Shown: positions 5,154-17,533 of the stretch, in pieces | Layout of the letters: each line of letters begins with the position of its first letter | Position numbering within the stretch: position 1 is the stretch's first letter | Assembly: GCF_007995085.1 (NCBI RefSeq) | Contig: NZ_VOQS01000003.1 | Span: 2,976,001 to 3,040,000 of the forward strand | DNA length: 64,000 nt | Direction: 5' to 3' | Source: Paraburkholderia azotifigens | Lineage (GTDB): Bacteria; Pseudomonadota; Gammaproteobacteria; Burkholderiales; Burkholderiaceae | Notes under the pieces: generated by a model | What the model saw: the letters and a program-made list of their open reading frames with translations, nothing else | The model's database searches: none | What the model was told of the DNA's origin: nothing | Made by a program: the position numbers and the translations under genes

Positions 5154-5252
5154 CAGACGGTCGACGCGGCGGGTTCGAACGATTCAGGATGCACCAACGA
5201 ATGGCGTGCGCGCACCATCGCGCGCACGCGCCAGAGGACACTTTGCACCGAT

Positions 5253-6562: not shown

Positions 6563-7214
6563 TCAGTCTTCGCCGCGCCCATCCTCGTGCATCATCCCGC
6601 GCTTGATCTGCAGCACCTCGCCCGCCTGGATCACAGAGTGACAGATGTCGTCGACCGACACACGTTTCTCCATCGCCTGGGCGCGCAGCATGTCGTACGC
6701 TTCGTTCTCGCTGACGCCATGCATCGTCATCAAAATGCCCTTCGCTTCCTGCAGATGCCGGCTGTCGAGCAGCTTCTGCTCGAGCCTTGGCAATTCGTTG
6801 CAAGTGCTGCCGCGAGCGCCGCGCATGATTGAGCGCCATGATTACGGTCGACAGCAGGCCCGAGGCGCGAATCGGCGTCGTGACGATGCCGTCCGATCCC
6901 ATCTTGATGGCCTGATCGATGAAGGTCGGATTCTCATACGCGACCACGCAGATGACGGGCGGCGCATCCGGCCCGGACCATTCGTCCTTCGGCGCGCGCT
7001 CTTCGGGCAACAGCGCACGGAACACCAGATCCGTCCTGTCGGGCAGCGTCTCCAGCGGCGGCCAGCATCGCTCGACCTGAAAGCCCATGCGCCGGAGATG
7101 GTTCGTGAGCGTCTGGCCGTCGTCATCGTCGGGATGGAACACGACCACGCGCGGATGGCGCTCCAGAATCGAACTGGTGAGGCTGCGTTGGTCTCTGCCC
7201 ATGCGCGCGCTCAC
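6563..7214 (-). pseudogene. amiR: amiR: ANTAR-domain antiterminator, frame broken by one extra G
   Basis: Two overlapping frames together make one AmiR of about 216 residues. The N-terminal pseudo-receiver (VVVFHPDDDDGQTL, FQVERCWPPLETLP, DGIVTTPIRASGLLSTV) is followed by a coiled coil and the ANTAR domain (SRHLQEAKGILMTMHGVSE, EAYDMLRAQAMEKR). The frame changes at the GG at 6785-6786; removing one G gives a continuous IAKLEQKLLDSR. AmiR binds leader RNA to prevent termination and is held inactive by AmiC. GTG at 7214 lies 1 bp from the amiC stop; an ATG at 7202 is an alternative start. The break may be a sequencing error. If real, the ANTAR domain is lost. Confidence 0.82.
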
Positions 7215-7215
7215 G

Positions 7216-8366
7216 TCAGTAGTCCCGCGTGCTCAACTTCGTCACCCAGTCCCCGAGTGTCTGGCGTGTCATATACGGGTCGGGGCCGACGGCGAACTTC
7301 GATTCGCGCAGCACGGTGAACTGGCCGTCCGCATTCGCGCGGCCGATACGCGGATAGAGCGCCATGTGATGATTCACGGGATCGATCCGCACCCTGCCTT
7401 GCGGCGCTGCGAATTCGGAGCCGAGCAAATGCGGCATGATCTTGCCGATTTCGTCCGAACCGGCGCGCGTGCAGGCTTCGGCGAACATATGCATCTGATA
7501 GTACGCGGCTTCCCAGTTCATGTCGGTCGGTGTATCGGCGCCGAAGCGCGCCTGGTGCTGCCGCACGGCGCGATGATTCTCGGCTGTATCGATGCTCTGG
7601 AAATACGGCGCCGCCGTGAAGTGTCCCGCCGCGATGCCGCGTTCCATCGCATGAATTTCTGTCTCGGACGTGTTGAGGCTGCCGATCGGCATCCGCGCGG
7701 GATCGAAACCCGCATGCGCGAAGGCCTCGTACAGATACGGCACGGTCGCGCCGATCACCGTGCAGAAAATCCAGTCGGGCGACTTGCGCGCGATATCCGC
7801 AACGACCTGCGCGAACTGCTCGCGGTCCGCCTCAAGCGGTAGATAGCGCTCACCGAGTATGGCGCCTTCCGGATGCTGAAGCAGCAGTTCCTGCATGGTC
7901 CGGTTGCATTCGTACGGATAGACGTAGCGAGAGCCCACGAAGTAGACGCGCGCGCCGAACGTCTGCGTCATGAAGTCGGCGAGCTGCACGCCGTTCTGAT
8001 TCGGCGACGCGCCGCTGTAGATGATGTTGTCCGAGTATTCGAAACCCTCGTACTGTTGTGAATAGATCAGCAGCCGGTTGTGCTTCTCGACGACGGGCAG
8101 CATTTGCGGCTCGTGGACGTATAGCCGCCGAAGATCACGTTGACGCCGTCCTGCACGATCAGGCGCTCGGCAAACTCGCGAAACACGGCGGGGTCCGAGC
8201 CCGGATCGTAGTGGATTGCAACGAGTTCGCGTCCGTCAATGCCGCCGCGCGCGTTGATCTCGTCCATCGCGAGGCACGCGCCGCGCCACTGCGACTGCTC
8301 CAGAAGCGCCGTCGAGCCGCTCGTGGAGCAAAGCAGACCAACTCTGATGGGATCGGACAATGCCAT
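7216..8366 (-). pseudogene. amiC: amiC: amide sensor / AmiR regulator, frame broken by one missing A
   Basis: Two frames join into a protein of about 383 residues colinear with Pseudomonas AmiC: IRVGLLCSTSGSTALLEQSQ, VIFGGYTSTSRK, then MLPVVEKHNRLL, YSQQYEGFEYSDN and GSRYVYPYECNRTMQ. No signal peptide is present, as expected for a cytosolic sensor that sequesters AmiR until an amide binds. The break is at the AAA run (plus 8103-8105); one more A restores SRK-MLPVVE. The gene sits between fmdA and amiR, as in amide operons. Loss of AmiC would be expected to free AmiR, but AmiR is also broken in this sequence. Confidence 0.85.
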
Positions 8367-8423: not shown

Positions 8424-9410
8424 TTACTTGAGGTAGTGCTTGGCGACCATCGCGCCGACCGTATATTTTGGATCGACAAAATTGCCGAGCCGCACTTTGC
8501 CGACCTGGCTCAGCATCATATACGCGTCCCACTTATCGAAGCCGTACTCCGCGGCCATCCACAGCACGAGTTCGCGATACGCAATACGTGTCGCGTCTTC
8601 GAGCGGCCGCGCGCTGCCGATGCTCATCAGGGCGTCCTCGTTTTCGAGCCGGGGCCAGTCGATCTTCCACTTCTTGATGAGATCGACCCGTACGGTCGTC
8701 GTGCTCTGATACTCGACGGCTGTGCCGCATACTTCGCCGTCGCCCTGGCAAGCGTGCGCGTCGCCGATGAAAAGCCGCCCGCCGGGCGAGCGCACGGGCA
8801 GATAGGTGATGCTGCCCGGCCCCATGTCGGGCACATCCATATTGCCGCCGTGCGAATCGGGCGTGAGCGAATTGATCGAATCGAGCTCCGGCGACAGACT
8901 CAGCGTGCCGATATGCGGCTTGTACGGTAGCGTGTTGCGCTTGCTCCAGTACACGTTCTCTTCGTCGATCTTGATCTTGCGCACCACTTCGGGCAAAGGC
9001 TCGTTGAGGAGCGCCGTGTAGTCGGTGCCCGTCAGTCCGCCGAAGTTCGGAATCATGCAGCAAAAGCCGTGCGGATCGTCGCCGCGCGGCGACATCTTTT
9101 CGATGTAGACCGCGACCACATCGCCCTTCTCCGCGCCCTCGATCATGATGGGACCGTTCTGCGGATTGAGGAACGGCACCGTCAGCACCTGCGATGGCTT
9201 ATCCGTTTCGTTCTTGATCTTCCCTTCGAACGCGTCACGCGTGTCCACCACCACACGATCGCCGGGCTTCACGTGCAGCACCGGCTGCGAATACGGCCCA
9301 ATGGTGTAGTGGAAGGTCTTCTGCAGTTCCTCGGTCAGATGATGTTCCACCGGTTCGCGATCGGCGCCGACGCCGCGCTTCATCATGATCGATTCTTCTA
9401 GCCATTTCAT
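8424..9410 (-). CDS. fmdA: Formamidase / acetamidase (FmdA_AmdA family)
   Basis: A 328-residue cytoplasmic hydrolase of the FmdA/AmdA family that releases ammonia and a carboxylate (formate or acetate) from short amides. Visible family marks are PVLHVKPGDRVVVDT near residue 45, the GDVVAVYIEKM strand, FGGLTG, DMGPGSITYLPV and the metal/active-site region IGDAHACQGDGEVCGTAVE. It is unrelated to the amidase at 2350. It lies 13 bp after the ATPase gene and 57 bp before amiC, inside a transporter operon. The same link of FmdA to an amide/urea transporter is known from methylotroph fmd genes. Formamide or acetamide is the likely substrate. Confidence 0.92.
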   Translation of the reverse strand: MKWLEESIMMKRGVGADREPVEHHLTEELQKTFHYTIGPYSQPVLHVKPGDRVVVDTRDAFEGKIKNETDKPSQVLTVPFLNPQNGPIMIEGAEKGDVVAVYIEKMSPRGDDPHGFCCMIPNFGGLTGTDYTALLNEPLPEVVRKIKIDEENVYWSKRNTLPYKPHIGTLSLSPELDSINSLTPDSHGGNMDVPDMGPGSITYLPVRSPGGRLFIGDAHACQGDGEVCGTAVEYQSTTTVRVDLIKKWKIDWPRLENEDALMSIGSARPLEDATRIAYRELVLWMAAEYGFDKWDAYMMLSQVGKVRLGNFVDPKYTVGAMVAKHYLK

Positions 9411-9423
9411 GTTCTGCTCTCCG

Positions 9424-10131
9424 TCACAGTGCCAGATACTGGCGTATCAGTTGCTCATCCCCGAGTTGCGCCGGGCTTAACGTGTCCACGATGCGGCCTT
9501 TGTCCATCACGCAGCAGCGCGTCGCGATGCGCTCGACCATACCCATGTCCTGCTCCACCAGCACCACGCCGATGCCCGTCTCGCGCGCGATCGTCAGCAG
9601 CGTCTCGCCGATCAGATCGACAATGGAAGGCTGGATGCCTTCCGATGGCTCGTCGAGCAGCAGCACCTGCGGCGAGCTGACGAGCGCCCGCGCGATGGCG
9701 AGCTGCTGTTGTTCCCCGCCGCTCATCGTGCCCGCCTTTTGCCGGTAGCGCGTCTTGAGAACGGGGAAGTAGCCGACAACCATCTCCCGCATCGACGCTG
9801 CCTTGTCCGGGTTCGCCTGCGCGCCGACCTGAAGGTTCTCCGCGACCGTCAGTGCGCCGAATATCTCGCGGCCCTGCGGCACATAGCCGATGCCTTTGCG
9901 TGCCCGCACATAGGGCTTTTCATGACCGATGGGCGCGCCGTCGAGCACGATCTGGCCCGCGTCGAGCCTGACGAGACCGATCAGCGTGCGCATCAGCGTG
10001 GTCTTGCCGACGCCGTTGCGTCCGATCAGCGCCAGCACTTCGCCGCGCCCGATACCGAACGACACGCCGTTGAGCACGCGCCCGCCGCCATAGCCTGCTG
10101 CCACGTCCGCGACTTCGAGAAGCGCGCTCAT
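9424..10131 (-). CDS. ABC transporter ATPase, LivF/UrtE type
   Basis: A 235-residue ATPase with Walker A GRNGVGKTT, signature MSGGEQQQLAIARAL, Walker B VLLLDEPSEG and a following VLVEQDMGMV switch. EGIQPSIV after Walker B is typical of LivF/UrtE. The ATG at 10131 overlaps the upstream ATPase stop by 4 bp (ATGA); a longer upstream frame is spurious. It pairs with the 10128-10838 ATPase to drive transporter 2. Confidence 0.93.
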   Translation of the reverse strand: MSALLEVADVAAGYGGGRVLNGVSFGIGRGEVLALIGRNGVGKTTLMRTLIGLVRLDAGQIVLDGAPIGHEKPYVRARKGIGYVPQGREIFGALTVAENLQVGAQANPDKAASMREMVVGYFPVLKTRYRQKAGTMSGGEQQQLAIARALVSSPQVLLLDEPSEGIQPSIVDLIGETLLTIARETGIGVVLVEQDMGMVERIATRCCVMDKGRIVDTLSPAQLGDEQLIRQYLAL

Positions 10132-10838
10132 GATTTCTTCCCCAGATAGACTTCCGCGACGTCGTCGCGCGCGAGGATCTCTTCGAGCGGGCCGTCGGCG
10201 AGCAGTCTTCCGCCGTGCAGCACCGTCACGCGCGTCGCGATCTGCCTGACGAAGGTCATGTCGTGCTCTACGACCATCATCGTCAGGCCGGATGCGGAAA
10301 GCCGCTTGATGAGTTCGCCCGTCGCATGCGTTTCCTCGATCGACATGCCCGCAACGGGCTCGTCGAGAAACAGCAGCTTCGGCCGCAGCGACACGGCCAT
10401 CGCGATTTCGAGCCATTGCTTCTTGCCATGCGACAGATTGCGCGCAAGCACATGCTCTTCCTGTTCCAGCAAGAAGCGCTGCAAGAGTTCTTCGATACTT
10501 CCAGGCCGGTCGTCCTTCGCGCGATACAGCGAGAGCTGCAGATGCTGACGTACACTCAGATCCGGAAAGACGCCGGGTATCTGAAACTTGATGCTCATCC
10601 CCATGCGGATGCGCTCGTGCGGCAGCACATGGCTCATGTCCCGCCCGAGAAAATGCACGCTGCCATCGGACGGTCTATGCTCCCCCGTGATGAGCTTGAA
10701 GAACGTGCTCTTGCCTGCGCCGTTCGGTCCGATCACGCAGCGGATCTCGCCCGCGTCGATCTGAAAGTCGATACCGTTGATCACCTGCACACCGCCGAAG
10801 TGTTTCTTGAGCGCGCGTGTTTCGAGCAGCACGGTCAC
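10128..10838 (-). CDS. ABC transporter ATPase, LivG/UrtD type
   Basis: A 236-residue ATPase with Walker [10 protein letters not shown], signature [15 protein letters not shown] and Walker [12 protein letters not shown]. The LSHG-KQWLEI signature is characteristic of the urea-transporter ATPase UrtD rather than LivG, which supports an amide or urea substrate. It overlaps the permease gene upstream and the ATPase gene downstream by 4 bp each. Confidence 0.93.
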
Positions 10839-11941
10839 GATTTACCCTCCTCTTGCTTGAGCGGTTCGTCGAAACACGGGCGGTTGCGACCGTTACCAAG
10901 ATTGCGCTCACGCTCGAAGCGCCGCAATTGCCTTGCTACGAACGGCAGCAGGCCTTCGGGCGCGGCCAGCACGACGACCAGCAGGATCGCGCCCATCAGG
11001 ATCAACGCGTACTGGCTGCCATATACGGCGAGATTCTGCGAAAGCCACACGAGCAACGCAGTGCCGGCAATCGCGCCGCCGATGCTCTTGCGGCCCGACG
11101 TAGCAACCCAGATCACGGGCATGGCCGCAGCCGTGAGGCCCATCGTCGACGGCGTGATGTACGAGCCCCAGATCGTGTACAGCGCGCCCGACAAGCCGCC
11201 CAGTGTGCCGCCGAGCACAAAGACCAGCAACTGATGAAGACGGATATCGACGCCCAGCATTTCCGCGCGCTGCGGGTTCTCGCGGATCGCGATCAGCGTG
11301 AGACCGAAGGGTCCGTCGAGCAGCTTGCGCATGAACGCGTAGACGGCGATCAGCAGGAGCAGCACCAGATAGTAGAAGCTCGTGTTCTCCAGTGTGAGCG
11401 GCCCGCCGGGCCACGGAATCGTCAGCGGCGGCATGCCGCCCATGCCGTTGTAGCCGTTCAGGCGCGCTTCGCCGATCGCCCATTGCGGCCCCGCCGTCTG
11501 CGCCATGAAGGTTTCGAGCACGAGCGTCACCGATAACGTCACGATGCCGATGAACACGCCCTTGATGCGCCCGAAGAAAATCATGTAGCCGATCAGCGCC
11601 GCCACGACGACGCTCACCGCGATGCCCGCGCCGAGGCCGAGCCACGAATCGAACCATGTGTCGCCGAAGTTCAGCGTGAAGATGCCGTAGCTATAGCCGG
11701 CCAGGCCGAAGAACGCGGTCTGCCCGAACGACAGGATGCCGCCGTAGCCCCACATCGCGGCAAGCCCGACCGCGCTGAACGCCCACAGCAGACAGTAGGC
11801 GAGATTGCCGCTCGTGTTCGCGTCCACGACGAGCGGCAGACACAGTGCCACGACCCACGGCATGTAACGCAGCGCACGCGGTGCCGGGCCTGACGCAGCC
11901 AGTTGCGCTTGCGTCACCGATCGCTTCACCGATTGCTTCAC
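10835..11941 (-). CDS. Liv/Urt-type ABC permease (LivM/UrtC family)
   Basis: A 368-residue inner-membrane permease with about ten hydrophobic segments. Family marks are WGYGGILSFGQTAFFGLAGY near residue 65 and IRENPQRAEMLGVDI in the cytoplasmic coupling loop. A GTG start at 11941 is chosen: it overlaps the preceding TGA by 4 bp (GTGA) and GGGAGGAG lies just upstream. A longer open frame continues into the neighbouring permease gene and is not real. It forms the channel of transporter 2 with the LivH-type protein. Confidence 0.92.
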   Translation of the reverse strand: MKQSVKRSVTQAQLAASGPAPRALRYMPWVVALCLPLVVDANTSGNLAYCLLWAFSAVGLAAMWGYGGILSFGQTAFFGLAGYSYGIFTLNFGDTWFDSWLGLGAGIAVSVVVAALIGYMIFFGRIKGVFIGIVTLSVTLVLETFMAQTAGPQWAIGEARLNGYNGMGGMPPLTIPWPGGPLTLENTSFYYLVLLLLIAVYAFMRKLLDGPFGLTLIAIRENPQRAEMLGVDIRLHQLLVFVLGGTLGGLSGALYTIWGSYITPSTMGLTAAAMPVIWVATSGRKSIGGAIAGTALLVWLSQNLAVYGSQYALILMGAILLVVVLAAPEGLLPFVARQLRRFERERNLGNGRNRPCFDEPLKQEEGKS

Positions 11942-12819
11942 GTCTCCTCCCGGCGCAAGCGCATGAACAGGTTGCCGAGCCCTTGCGGCATCAAGCGGAT
12001 CACCACGATCACTGCGACGAGCAGGCCGATCTGTCCGAACAGCTGACCGTAGCACGCGGTGAGCGCGGCCTGGATGATCGCCAGCACGCCGGCCGCCGGC
12101 GTCGTGCCGGCAATCACATTTACGCCCCCGACGACCACCGACACGAACGCCTGCACGATGAAGTTGCTGCCCATCGTCGGCACGGCCGTCATGGTCGGCG
12201 CGTAGAGCGCGCCCGTGAGTCCGGCAAGTCCCGCGCCCAGCGCGAAGGTCAGCGTGTAGAGACGATCCGTGCGCAAGCCAAGGCATTGCGCGATGCTGGC
12301 GTTCTGTATCGTCGCGCGCGCACAGACGCCGTAGTTGGTCTTGAAGAACAGTAGATAAAGCGCGAACAGAATGCAAAGCGCGATTCCCGGCAGCACCGCC
12401 CGATACGTCGAGAACGAATACTCGCCCAGCGAGAACGCGCCGAACGGCGTGCCGATACCTTCGAGCGACGGACCGGCGACGAGCAGCATGGTCTGCTGCA
12501 CGATCAGGCTGATGGCCCACGTCGCCACGACGGAATCGAACAGGCGGTCATAAAGATGACGAATCACGAGCCGCTCGATCACGACGCCCGCCATGGCTGC
12601 AGCCAGCGCGCCGAGCAGCATCGCGAGCGGCAGCGGCATGCCGTTCTTCGCCGAGATGATGGTGACATACGCGCCGCACATGATGAACTCGCCATGCGCG
12701 AGATTGATGACGCCCATCATGCCGAAGATGACCGCCAGCCCGAGCGCGGCCAGCACCAGATACGCAAAGCTGTCGCCGAACTGATAGATCAGCGAATAGA
12801 GCACCGACAAGGTGGCCAT
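11938..12819 (-). CDS. Liv/Urt-type ABC permease (LivH/UrtB family)
   Basis: A 293-residue inner-membrane permease with the family stretch GLAVIFGMMGVINLAHGEFI near residue 30 and GAGLAGLTGALYAPTMTAVP near residue 205. The ATG at 12819 has GGAG 7 bases upstream; an alternative start 42 bp further up adds a non-family extension. It lies 61 bp downstream of the binding-protein gene in operon 2. Confidence 0.92.
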   Translation of the reverse strand: MATLSVLYSLIYQFGDSFAYLVLAALGLAVIFGMMGVINLAHGEFIMCGAYVTIISAKNGMPLPLAMLLGALAAAMAGVVIERLVIRHLYDRLFDSVVATWAISLIVQQTMLLVAGPSLEGIGTPFGAFSLGEYSFSTYRAVLPGIALCILFALYLLFFKTNYGVCARATIQNASIAQCLGLRTDRLYTLTFALGAGLAGLTGALYAPTMTAVPTMGSNFIVQAFVSVVVGGVNVIAGTTPAAGVLAIIQAALTACYGQLFGQIGLLVAVIVVIRLMPQGLGNLFMRLRREET

Positions 12820-12880
12820 GATTGCTCCACTTTCAAAGAACGTGCGCGCCCTTCGACCCATCCGGACACGCCCGTTCGGG

Positions 12881-14125
12881 TCACGACTTCTTCGGCAGAT
12901 TCGACGGCGTGTATTGACGGTGATCCGGCTTGTTCGGCAGATCGCAGCCCACCTTGCCGAGCCAGTACGGCTGCACGTCGTCCCATATCTTCGGGATATC
13001 GACGGAATGGTCGTCCTTCACATGCACGAGAAAGATCGTATGGCTCGCATGATGGCTCTTCGGGTCGATGCAAACCTTGCCCTGCGCGCCTTCCGTACAG
13101 ATGCCGCCGCTCTCCAGCGCCTTGCGCACGGCATCCTGATTGGTGGACTTCGCCTTTTCGGCGGCTGCCTTGTAGAGGTAAATCGCGTCGTAAGCGTTGG
13201 CGGCTTCCTGATTGATGTACGGCTCGTTCGGGAACTTCGCGTGGAAGCGTTTCTTGAAGTCGTTGCTCGCGGGCGTGTCGACTTCCTCGACATAGTTCGC
13301 GGTCACGTACATGTCCTTCAATGCAGGCGGTTTGAAGCGCTTGTGCTCATACGCCTGACCGACGTTCACCGAACTCGCCATCGGCAGATTCAGATGCGCC
13401 GAAGCCTGCTGCTCGTAGTACGACGCCTGATTCGCGCCGACCAGCAAGGTCACGACAAAATCCGGTTTGGCCTTCTGGATGTTCTGGATGGTCTGACCGA
13501 ACTGCGATACCGACAGCGGGATGAATTCCTCGCCCACCATCGTGCCGCCGTTCTCCTTCACGATGTTGCGCACCCATTCGGCGGAGATCTGCCCGAAGTT
13601 GTAATCGGCGGCGATTGTGTACACCTTCTTGCCGAACTTCTGCATCATCCACGGAATCAGCGTCGAGAACTGCTGCTCGGGCACGGCGCCCGTCACGAAG
13701 GTGTTGGTGTCGCACACACCGCCCTCGTACTGGTTGTCGTACCAGTAGAGTTGATGCGCGCGATCCATGATGGGACGAATCGCTTCGCGCGAGGCGCTGG
13801 AGAACGCGCCGAAGATCACGTCCGGCTTGTCGGTCTGCACCAGCCGACGCGCGAGTTCCTGAAACTTGGTGTTGTCCGATTGCGTGTCGTACGCGACGAG
13901 CTGGATCGGGCGGCCAAGTATGCCGCCCTTGGCGTTGATTTCGTCTACGGCGAGCTGCGTCGCGTGAATCTTCGGGATGGTCGCCAGCGCGAAGTTGCCC
14001 GACGCGTCTTCGAGCAGGCCGACCTTCACGGGTTCGGCCGCATCCGTGACATTCGTGACAAGCGACGTGACTGCAAGTCCTGCAATGAAGGCCAGACGCA
14101 TCCAGCCGGACGGCTTAAGCAACAT
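12881..14125 (-). CDS. Periplasmic substrate-binding protein, UrtA/FmdD-like, first gene of operon 2
   Basis: A 414-residue binding protein with a Sec signal (LAFIAGLAVTSLVTNVTDAA, cleavage after DAA near residue 30). KVGLLEDASGNFALATIPK, WYDNQYEGGVCDTNTFVTG and IAADYNFGQISAEW are the amide/urea-binder marks. It captures the substrate for the permeases and ATPases that follow. The ATG at 14125 has GGAG 7 bases upstream. A longer frame to 14194 would translate the terminator hairpin and is rejected. As first gene it lies directly downstream of the leader attenuator, so the whole operon depends on read-through there. Confidence 0.9.
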   Translation of the reverse strand: MLLKPSGWMRLAFIAGLAVTSLVTNVTDAAEPVKVGLLEDASGNFALATIPKIHATQLAVDEINAKGGILGRPIQLVAYDTQSDNTKFQELARRLVQTDKPDVIFGAFSSASREAIRPIMDRAHQLYWYDNQYEGGVCDTNTFVTGAVPEQQFSTLIPWMMQKFGKKVYTIAADYNFGQISAEWVRNIVKENGGTMVGEEFIPLSVSQFGQTIQNIQKAKPDFVVTLLVGANQASYYEQQASAHLNLPMASSVNVGQAYEHKRFKPPALKDMYVTANYVEEVDTPASNDFKKRFHAKFPNEPYINQEAANAYDAIYLYKAAAEKAKSTNQDAVRKALESGGICTEGAQGKVCIDPKSHHASHTIFLVHVKDDHSVDIPKIWDDVQPYWLGKVGCDLPNKPDHRQYTPSNLPKKS

Positions 14126-14168
14126 GCGGATTCTCCAGTAATGGGCTCGAACTCCCGAAAATGCGAAC

Positions 14169-14210
14169 AAAAAAAAGCCCCCTGACGAACACACGGTTCG
14201 TCAGGGGGCT
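14169..14210 (-). terminator. Intrinsic terminator in the leader of operon 2 (attenuator)
   Basis: A perfect 14-15 bp stem (arms 14176-14190 and 14196-14210) with a 5-base loop is followed on the minus strand by eight T (14176-14169). It lies between the promoter and the first gene of the same strand, 44 bp before the ATG, so it must act as an attenuator and not an end-of-gene terminator. Confidence 0.9.
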
Positions 14211-14254
14211 TCTGTGCCGGACCCTCGGGCGGACATCGTTGTCGGGCCGCGAGG
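14204..14254 (-). promoter_or_regulatory. ANTAR-type tandem-hairpin RNA target (AmiR antitermination site)
   Basis: Hairpin 1 (14254-14223) closes with GAC/GTC around the hexaloop AACGAT (14240-14235) and has outer stems GGC/GCC and CCTCG/CGAGG. Hairpin 2 closes with GGC/GCC around the hexaloop ACAGAA (14215-14210), with GGG/CCC further out. Both loops have A at position 1 and G at position 4, the conserved feature of ANTAR-binding leader RNAs. The 3' arm of hairpin 2 (14209-14204) is also the 5' arm of the terminator, so the two structures exclude each other. The operon encodes its own ANTAR protein, AmiR. Confidence 0.75.
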
Positions 14255-14263
14255 AATGGATGC

Positions 14264-14293
14264 AGTCTAAAGCGCCGAATTTTGCGTTGTCAA
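14264..14293 (-). promoter_or_regulatory. sigma70-like promoter of the amide/formamidase operon 2
   Basis: On the minus strand a perfect TTGACA (14293-14288) is followed after 18 bases by TAGACT (14269-14264). The start would be near 14257, so the transcript begins right at hairpin 1 of the antiterminator, with a leader of about 130 nt. Confidence 0.65.
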
Positions 14294-14299
14294 CGCTGA

Positions 14300-14778
14300 T
14301 CAAAAATCCCTTTGCCGTCTGCGCGCGCGGGGAAACGCCGCATTACAGCCGCTCGACAGCCACGTGTCGCCGTGCTCGCAGTACGCGTCAGCGAGCGAGT
14401 GCCATGTCGATGCTCATAGCAGACACCAGTCAGCGGCACGTGCGTCTTCGCCCCCGTGTGCCGGTTCAAGGGAGATCGATTGTGCGCTTACGAGCGGTCG
14501 CGGTCCGGACCCGTTGCCGTCATTCAAGTCTCCACAGCGGCGATGTCCGTTTTCAAAGTCCAACCGCCAGTCGTTCACATCGTGACGCCTGCCCCTTGTC
14601 GGACTCGCCTCGCAACCTGCAACCGATGGGCAGACAGCGACGAACCCGAGAGTTCGTGAAGGTCAATATCCGGCGAACACTCCCGGTCAGATAACAAATC
14701 GGTAATCTGCGCGTCGTTGTTCGGTAATCAGGGGCCACGGAGAATAGAAGTTCAAACACCCTATACGGCACGCACATC
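14300..14778. other. Intergenic region, no gene recognised
   Basis: About 480 bp between the operon 2 promoter and the divergent cytochrome gene. Open frames here have no recognisable family features. It presumably holds the cytochrome promoter, which I could not place. Confidence 0.4.
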
Positions 14779-15872: not shown

Positions 15873-17533
15873 CTAACGATTCATCCCTCGACGACTTTCC
15901 AGGTATTTGTGAACGAATGCGATTGCCATACTGCCTTCTCCAACGGCGGAGGCGACGCGTTTGACCGGGCTCAGTCGTACATCTCCGCAGGCGAATACGC
16001 CGGGGATACTCGTTTCGAGCAGGTAAGGGTCGCGAGTTTCGGACCAGTGCCCGGCCTTAACGACATCGTCGCCCGTGAGCACGAACCCTCGTTGATCGCG
16101 CGCGATCTCCATCGGTAGCCATCCGGTCTCCGCATCTGCACCGATAAACACGAAAAGCCCTCCGCAGGCTTTCCAGCTCACCTCTCCATGTGACCGATCC
16201 CGCAAACAGATCTCAGAAAGACGGGAGTCCCCCGTACCGCGGTCACTTCCGAATCGAGTTGGACGGAGACGTTGGATTTTGCCTTGATCTGCTCGATTAG
16301 ATAGCGGGACATATTTTTCTCAAGCGACTCCCCGCGCACAACAAGCGTTACGTGCCGTGCATGATTGGCGAAATTCAAGGCGGCCTGACCGGCCGAATTG
16401 CCGCCGCCGATGAGGAAAATGTCAAGACCATGCGTAGCACCGGAATCGCCGCGCGAGGCACCATAATGGATACCCTTGCCAGCAAATCGGTCACAGCCCT
16501 CGATATCGAGCCTCCGCCAGCTGACGCCTGTCGCAAGGATGATTGTTCGCGCCTGAATGATGTCGTCCCCATCGAGGTGTAGACAGTGAGCGCCAATCTC
16601 GACTTTTCTGACCGATCGCGCAACCACGATCTCCGCACCGAGTCGCTTTGCCTGCTGCAACGCGCGGCTTGCAAGCTCTTCCCCTGATACGCCATTCGGA
16701 AAACCCAGATAATTTTCGATGCGCGATGATGTACCCGCCTGACCGCCTAGTGCCTCGCGCTCAAGGACTAAAGTGCGCAGACCTTCAGATGCACCATAGA
16801 CGGCTGCCGCAAGCCCAGCCGGACCTCCTCCGATAATTACGGTGTCGTAGTCGAGAAGGCTCGGCTGGGTACGCAAGCCAAGCGCTGTAGCGAGCTGTCG
16901 AGTTGACGGGCGCCGGAGAACAGCCCCGTCATGCAATTTCAAAACGGGAAAATCAGCTACCTGAAAACGTTCCCCGGACTCCGAAGACTGCTTCTCGAAA
17001 TCATCGGGCGCCTTCACCTCGAAGCTCACCTGATTGCGTTGCAAGAACTGTTGCAACGCCCGGCAGGCCGGATCAAGGCGATCGCCGATCATCGTCGCCC
17101 GAGGCATGGGCGGCTCGTCAGCGATTTCCTGCAGACCCCCGACGCGTTCTCGGGCGAGGAGACCCACTTTTACTGCGATTTCCCGGCATGAGGCCGCAAT
17201 TGCATAATAGTCTTGTGTGTCGACACGCATAACCCGGGAGGGCGAAGCAGCTCGGTAAGAGATAACGAATGGCGAACTCAACACAAGCGGCAGTTCACCG
17301 AACACACTTCCAGGCGTTCTCCAACCAAGCGTGCGCTCAACGCTATCAAAGACCTTGAAGGCTTCTATTTTCCCTTCCAGCACTGCGTAAAGTGCAGGCT
17401 CTCCGCCCTCATGTACGGCAAAATCTCCGGCTTGCAAATGTACATCGCCAGCGGACTTTGCCAAACGATCAAGTTCGCTGTCTGGCAGACCAGCAAACAA
17501 GGGAACCATTCGTATATCGTCTATCGTGAGCAT
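15873..17533 (-). pseudogene. cNMP-binding / thioredoxin-reductase-like flavoprotein, frame broken in a C run
   Basis: Two frames join into about 553 residues. The N-terminal 130 residues are a cyclic-nucleotide-binding domain (FAVHEGGEPALYAVLEGKIE, PGSVFGELPLVL). A short thioredoxin-like linker follows, then an FAD/NAD(P) oxidoreductase with GGGPAGLAAAVYGASEGL, ENYLGFPNG and GGGNSAGQAA. The usual CxxC redox pair is absent (IHYGASRGDSGATHG), as in related non-thioredoxin-reducing enzymes. The frame changes at the five-base C run 16229-16233; a sixth base restores VRG-DSRLSEICLRDRS. C-terminal marks TSIPGVFACGDVR are intact. Possibly a sequencing error. Confidence 0.82.

Follow-up and report, generated by a model that had tools for sequence, protein, structure and literature searches.

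The window, by which we mean the whole 64-kb stretch of Paraburkholderia azotifigens DNA that was analysed, carries on its minus strand an operon whose first start codon lies at position 14125. It encodes a periplasmic binding protein, two permeases and two ATPases of a Urt/Fmd-type importer, an amidohydrolase of the FmdA_AmdA family and, at its 3' end, AmiC and AmiR, and it is preceded by a leader with two small hairpins (P1 and P2) and an intrinsic terminator (Table 1). The reading frames of the importer genes and of fmdA are open. Against the Urt equivalog models, the binding protein scores over the TIGR03669 cut-off and the other four importer genes score below theirs, while FmdA reaches 81 bits against an NCBIfam formamidase equivalog cut-off of 500; the names "formamidase" and "amide importer", and with them the presumed substrate, come from family resemblance. 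Similarity to two close relatives ends just upstream of the promoter, at 14336 and 14388, so that leader and operon together look like a movable block. The cNMP-binding/pyridine nucleotide oxidoreductase ORF at 16178-17533 is perhaps a broken gene, as it terminates prematurely within the Pfam domain, at profile position 214 of 291.

Table 1. Leader elements and genes of the amide operon, with their positions in the window
Feature	Position	Strand	Remarks
Sigma-70 type promoter	14264..14293	-	-35 TTGACA 14293-14288; -10 TAGACT 14269-14264
P1 hairpin	14223..14254	-	hexaloop AACGAT 14240-14235, with A1 and G4
P2, putative antiterminator mini-hairpin	14207..14218	-	GGC-ACAGAA-GCC, 3 bp; loop 14215-14210, with A1 and G4
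Intrinsic terminator	14169..14212	-	17 pairs, 14212-14196 with 14190-14174; U8 14176-14169
Periplasmic binding protein, Urt/Fmd type	12881..14125	-	above TIGR03669 cut-off
Permease, UrtB-like	11938..12861	-	under family cut-offs
Permease, UrtC-like	10835..11941	-	under family cut-offs
ABC ATPase, UrtD-like	10128..10838	-	under family cut-off
ABC ATPase, UrtE-like	9424..10131	-	just under family cut-off
FmdA_AmdA family amidohydrolase	8424..9410	-	Pfam PF03069
amiC, frameshifted near 8103	7216..8366	-	N-terminal frame 8366-8067 (99 aa); C-terminal frame 8103-7216 (295 aa)
amiR, frameshifted near 6788	6563..7214	-	AmiR_N (PF21332) in 7214-6783; ANTAR (PF03861) in another frame, 6826-6563

Most of the leader anatomy given in a preliminary description of this DNA was recovered. 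The near-consensus promoter reads TTGACA-18-TAGACT, with 10 of 12 consensus matches, and both hairpins are present, their hexaloops AACGAT and ACAGAA each bearing A at position 1 and G at position 4 (A1/G4). The terminator has the eight U announced, although its stem is longer than the 14-15 bp given, with 17 to 18 pairs according to fold and scan and a perfect 16-nt inverted repeat. P1 consists here of 11 pairs interrupted by one bulge and one internal loop. The fold of the 131-nt leader has a z-score of -4.6, none of 200 shuffled sequences being equally stable. A strict motif rule (two A1/G4 hexaloops, the second one feeding a terminator) picks out a single site on both strands of the window, which is the amide-operon leader, and no site at all in 150 simulated 64-kb windows drawn from a second-order Markov model.

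P2 and the terminator share bases, as had been proposed: the 3' arm of P2 (GCC, 14209-14207) sits within the 5' arm of the terminator, and enforcing P2 opens the terminator base and leaves an 11-bp shortened stem that is separated from the U-tract. The free fold with the terminator reaches -51.9 kcal/mol and the fold with P2 enforced -40.9 kcal/mol, a cost of 11 kcal/mol. Since the terminator fold is the cheaper one, termination would be the default, and capture of P2 would need a protein or kinetics. The same arrangement of hairpins and terminator is described for ANTAR leaders by Stewart and van Tilbeurgh and by Ramesh et al. in sections of PMC3369936 and PMC3369931, respectively.

We found the same leader at the head of the same operon in Paraburkholderia, Caballeronia, Yersinia, Brenneria, Klebsiella and others. 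Starting from the best 80 of 460 loci in a binding-protein scan of genomes, to which further genomes added more, a leader lies at most 350 nt upstream of the binding-protein gene in 41 of the 86 loci examined, a set that includes at least one duplicate pair (L036/L116) and leaves out two plasmid loci. An ANTAR gene is present in 39 of these 41, the exceptions being one locus whose contig ends inside amiC (L045) and that of Brenneria izbisi (L073). In the latter, leader and first genes are kept, but the operon breaks off within the first of its ATPase genes. Another 36 of the 86 loci have an ANTAR gene without a leader at that place, and nine have neither, six of which are informative, the other three (L066, L070, L092) being contigs too short to tell. 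Among the 39 loci with an ANTAR gene downstream of the binding-protein gene, 38 have the leader, L061 being the one without it.

A finder for similar leaders was run on 24 loci (L050, L061, the 14 alphaproteobacterial loci L076-L089, six from Bradyrhizobium and two from plasmids) and gave matches only in the six Bradyrhizobium loci, between divergent genes and with an unconvincing P1. This finder has false negatives, as it missed the Klebsiella plasmid locus L122, where a weak match (E 0.76) to the covariance model R1 described below sits just upstream of the first gene. In that same locus an IS5-like element lies between the AmiC-like gene and the ANTAR gene of the operon (8936-9916).

No Rfam family matches the window at gathering threshold. 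The sole match under E 0.01 is Bp2_287, on the opposite strand, with 23.7 bits against a cut-off of 70 and resting largely on the inverted repeat of the terminator; the weak matches, at E up to 10, were judged to be terminator look-alikes. In the window's own genome the model R1, built from 20 Burkholderia-group leaders, has a single match, accompanied by its antisense shadow. It matches 23 of 144 genomes of the genus, in one of which (G148) the match stands before a different operon, and 28 of 398 genomes drawn from the family, at least three of these matches (L195-L197, E 0.001-0.009) looking like plain terminators. When applied to 20 leaders outside its training set, R1 recovered six at E about 0.01 or less and 11 at E <= 1, and it missed nine of 13 enteric leaders at E <= 1, so that the genus and family tallies are lower bounds. 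Antisense matches, which correspond to the terminator repeat, reach 41 bits outside the training set and 48 bits in the family search. Judged by this recovery, R1 is specific when applied to close relatives and weak on distant ones.

The match in G148 (locus L171, at about 9030-9110) is an ANTAR-type leader with the loops AAAGGC and AATGAA, and it precedes genes that by eye are acyltransferase/hydrolase-like, amidase-like and permease-like. In several Burkholderiales (L192, L246-L251, L253-L256) the same kind of leader stands before a UrtA/AmiC-like binding-protein gene. A wider pattern search matched 22 of 369 and 37 of 399 genomes, against about 4 and 8 for a reversed-pattern control; 16 loci in which the match holds a terminator-like inverted repeat were kept by eye, the rest looking like chance matches in coding sequence. 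The first ORF in the kept loci matches the binding protein or AmiC in 11 cases and is presumably AmiE-like in two, L211, L212 and L224 making up the remaining three.

Collapsing identical leaders left 37 distinct ones, all of them before the same gene. These had been selected with a P2 pattern that fixes GGC, the A1 of the loop and GCC, and with a U-run as well, letters that consequently carry no independent weight. Loop 1 lay outside this selection, and it has A1 and G4 in 37 of 37 leaders, with positions 3, 5 and 6 varying. Each leader contains exactly one C-ANNGNN-G upstream of P2; this pattern itself names the A, the G and the closing pair, and a MAFFT alignment also shows these to be invariant. 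The distance between the two loops is 19 nt in 35 leaders and 18 nt in two. A best-fit promoter scan upstream of P1, which is a fit and not a test, returns an exact TTGACA in 36 of 37, and P1 starts 6-15 nt after the -10 element.

The preliminary description had pointed to covariation in both stems as a check on its reading. It is found in P1, where changes on both sides affect six of 12 pairs across 19 distinct stems; the 3-bp stem of P2 never varies in the set and is uninformative. Of the cells of the P1 alignment, 197 of 228 are paired, compared with a mean of 174.1 and a maximum of 184 in 2000 shuffles, a count that leans towards structure insofar as the bulges and the pair register were placed by hand for each lineage. 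Sliding P1 out of register leaves 28-46% of cells paired. Within the 20 Burkholderia-group leaders only, the signal is thin, with both-side changes in one P1 pair and two terminator pairs. A second set, overlapping the first, was taken from 44 loci around R1 matches and leans to the Burkholderia group on which R1 was trained. It gave 40 readable leaders, 33 of them distinct, in which, with no loop letters named beforehand, A1/G4 of loop 1 is present in 33 of 33, G4 of loop 2 in 33 of 33 and A1 of loop 2 in 31 of 33. P1 covariation, the conserved A1/G4 of loop 1, the fixed inter-loop spacing and the co-occurrence with AmiR together argue for a putative ANTAR-type attenuator, and on these comparative grounds the original proposal is well supported.

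In Pararobbsia (L050, about 9796-9900), a leader-like P2 and terminator precede the same gene, with no A1/G4 loop 1 at the expected place. This leader belongs to neither set, its short U-run having kept it out of the 37. The idea that it degenerated through loss of AmiR was dropped, as a diverged ANTAR gene sits upstream there.

Loop 2 behaves differently from loop 1. The published A1/G4 rule holds for both loops in the window and for loop 1 of all 37 leaders, but it fails for loop 2 in 13 of them: 24 leaders have G4, 11 have a G at position 5 and two have neither. The G5 group consists of Enterobacterales and Pollutimonas, and the pair without G of Noviherbaspirillum and an Oxalobacteraceae genome. 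Loci representing all 13 leaders without G4 contain an ANTAR gene, and the core AYxx(L/I)RxxAM is kept in 11 of 11 leader-bearing loci whose ANTAR segment was inspected. The 16 further leaders kept by eye from the wider pattern search, which lie in the window's order and class and whose search pattern fixes A1/G4 of loop 1 and A1 of loop 2, show G4 in 10, G5 only in three and neither in three; six of them belong to one genus that has both the G4 and the G5 form. In two leaders (L233, L237) position 4 and position 5 of loop 2 both lack G; they stand before an amidase that we take to be AmiE-like from its N-terminus. In L188 and L189, the two leaders of the second set without A1 in loop 2, this loop reads GTAGAA, with A1 lost and G4 kept.

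For EutV, altering G4 of loop 2 lowered both induction and binding, according to a section of PMC3369931, and G4 is given as the only base-specific contact in the part of the structure paper PMC8934654 that also proposes successive docking on P1 and then P2. Although it falls slightly short of an even bet, we tentatively suggest from the leader alignments that in AmiR-type leaders loop 1 may be the base-specific signal and loop 2 mainly a structural antiterminator, in which the G may slide to position 5 or vanish, and A1 is lost in two further leaders. Such an unequal role of the loops would break with the symmetry of the A1/G4 rule, which was derived from EutV and NasR, and would fit successive docking. 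This class of operons offers a ready natural mutant series: with its dozens of leader variants it could be used to tell apart what each of the two loops contributes, a question raised by the 2022 EutV structure.

Concerning the regulators, the genes for AmiC and AmiR are indeed in the operon, as the preliminary description had it, and their pieces contain PF13433, PF21332 and PF03861. They are not intact, however, and the operon was wrongly called complete for this genome: the assembly does not encode full-length AmiC and AmiR, both frames being broken in it, and in amiR the break falls between the AmiR_N and ANTAR domains. Comparison of 11.4 kb with a 97.9% identical relative (L034) shows five length differences. 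Through two of them amiC (near 8103) and amiR (near 6788) each lose the reading frame. Of the remaining three, one changes the start of a permease gene by 12 bases in frame, one lies within the terminator and is private to L034, and one, at 5244, is private to the window and outside the operon. A 93% identical relative (L114) gives the same two regulator breaks, and the net frame of the importer genes and of fmdA is unchanged against either relative. AmiR pieces were found in 57 of 66 loci examined, the window included. Only the window has AmiR out of frame; the remaining 56 loci, in all of which it is unbroken, reduce to 48 distinct ones once eight duplicates are removed. A corresponding tally of 62 loci for intact AmiC was set aside, at least six being ~24%-identical matches, probably to the binding protein. 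The intact relative L034 shows the orthology of both regulators: its AmiC matches P. aeruginosa AmiC (1qnl) with E 4e-82, and its AmiR matches AmiR (1qo0) with E 2e-19 and EutV (6wsh/6ww6) with E 6e-14.

Programmed frameshifting in amiR was considered and rejected, as we saw no slippery site by eye and amiR is read without any shift in the 56 relatives. Translation from an internal ATG at 6826 could yield an 87-aa ANTAR fragment, with no good ribosome site by eye. A search of the genome for a second AmiR found none besides the frameshifted one. It did reveal two further ANTAR genes, both open: one that by resemblance is NasT-like, adjoining a gene that by resemblance is NasS-like, and one for a 132-aa protein. 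The latter (L121, 8746-9144) lies near FmdA/AmdA-like genes.

In this strain the leader may be an ANTAR element by descent that is now orphaned, with amiC and amiR as pseudogenes and the operon locked in early termination, yielding a short terminated RNA only; we give this explanation about an even chance. It would account for frame-breaking differences in both regulators next to importer genes and an fmdA that keep their frame against the 97.9% and 93% relatives, as well as for an AmiR that is out of frame in the window alone among 57, and it agrees with the remaining ANTAR genes being NasT-like and the 132-aa one. The regulators make up about 1.8 kb of the 10 kb of coding sequence, which puts the chance that two random events both strike them at ~3%, as estimated from gene lengths. 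Yet these are just two events, which may be assembly errors; the third length difference private to the window lies outside the operon, and leader, promoter and terminator show no decay. Unless the assembly is in error, the switch may have lost its regulator in this strain.

Another ANTAR protein of the same cell, either the NasT-like or the 132-aa one, might work the leader in trans. Both genes being open speaks for this, as does the related genome G148, where the ANTAR-type leader is on one contig and all three ANTAR genes found are on another; we regard it as improbable all the same, given that 38 of 39 suitable loci combine the leader with an AmiR downstream and that Nas leaders respond to nitrate. 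It is very improbable that the region is no more than a common terminator, or else the gene of a small RNA, lying between unrelated units and bearing hexaloops by accident. The terminator is admittedly the strongest feature, and the Bp2_287 match depends largely on its repeat, but P1 covaries, A1/G4 of loop 1 is kept across orders, the order of P1, P2, terminator and start codon is preserved along with the inter-loop spacing, and the strict motif did not arise in any simulated window.

We consider it highly probable that the 5' leader of the amide operon is a transcription attenuator of the AmiR/NasR (ANTAR) dual-hexaloop class, the proposed mechanism taken as a whole included. As pieced together from sections of PMC3369931, PMC3369936 and PMC8934654, this mechanism would run as follows. 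Transcription would start probably around the base of P1, and by default the nascent RNA would fold into P1 and the terminator, halting RNA polymerase at U8. Once AmiC lets go of AmiR, an ANTAR dimer would dock on loop 1 and next capture P2. Because the GCC arm of P2 is the base of the terminator 5' arm, P2 would shorten the terminator and separate its stem from the U-tract, and importer, FmdA, AmiC and AmiR would then be transcribed. Binding by AmiR, a small-amide ligand and read-through are expected by analogy with known relatives. In this genome the operon would probably stay terminated, with basal read-through only, unless the frameshifts are assembly errors or the ANTAR fragment is made. 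The mechanism class first proposed is very likely right for the operon family, whereas a complete, working switch in this genome as assembled is not supported. The family offers a compact and widely shared example of a nitrogen-scavenging importer that would be gated by AmiR-type attenuation, and the paired frameshifts are a possible natural case of an attenuator that lost its regulator.

The preliminary description knew of no account of such an arrangement, a statement that is partly answered by the literature. A 2012 search by Ramesh et al. reports ANTAR leaders in Burkholderia and before urea transporters, as parts of PMC3369931 state, and the novelty is therefore modest; a section of a 2026 paper (PMC13209695) describes a Klebsiella plasmid on which amiE, amiC and amiR share one operon with ABC-transporter genes. 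In the full-text literature, judged mostly by titles and abstract openings and including few subscription journals, we recognised no account of the operon of leader, importer and FmdA. The Klebsiella plasmid operon resembles it in joining AmiC/AmiR with an importer, but has an AmiE-type amidase, and no leader is discussed in the relevant portions of PMC13209695. The fmdCABDEF genes of Methylophilus methylotrophus likewise pair a formamidase with an importer for short-chain amides and urea, and formamide and urea act as inducers according to parts of the review PMC10781810, whose main text names neither AmiC nor AmiR; the gene order differs from that seen here.

Among leaders of the class, that of Klebsiella nasF with NasR is similar in having a P1 with A1/G4 followed by the terminator (as given in sections of PMC3369936) and in serving nitrogen assimilation, but NasR is a one-protein nitrate sensor and the operon is a different one. 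The Enterococcus eutP leader with EutV (6ww6) shares P1, P2 and the terminator overlap, together with the ANTAR sequence match. It differs with regard to loop-2 G4: EutV needs this base, which 13 of the 37 leaders analysed here lack. EutV is switched by phosphorylation, and AmiR by AmiC. The likeness extends to the regulators in the amiE leader of P. aeruginosa, which has orthologues of both AmiC and AmiR, is linked to amide nitrogen metabolism and, as described in parts of PMC3369931, has dual A1/G4 hexaloops before the terminator. In contrast to that system, the leader analysed here heads an operon for an importer and FmdA, with amiC and amiR at the 3' end, both of them frameshifted in this genome.
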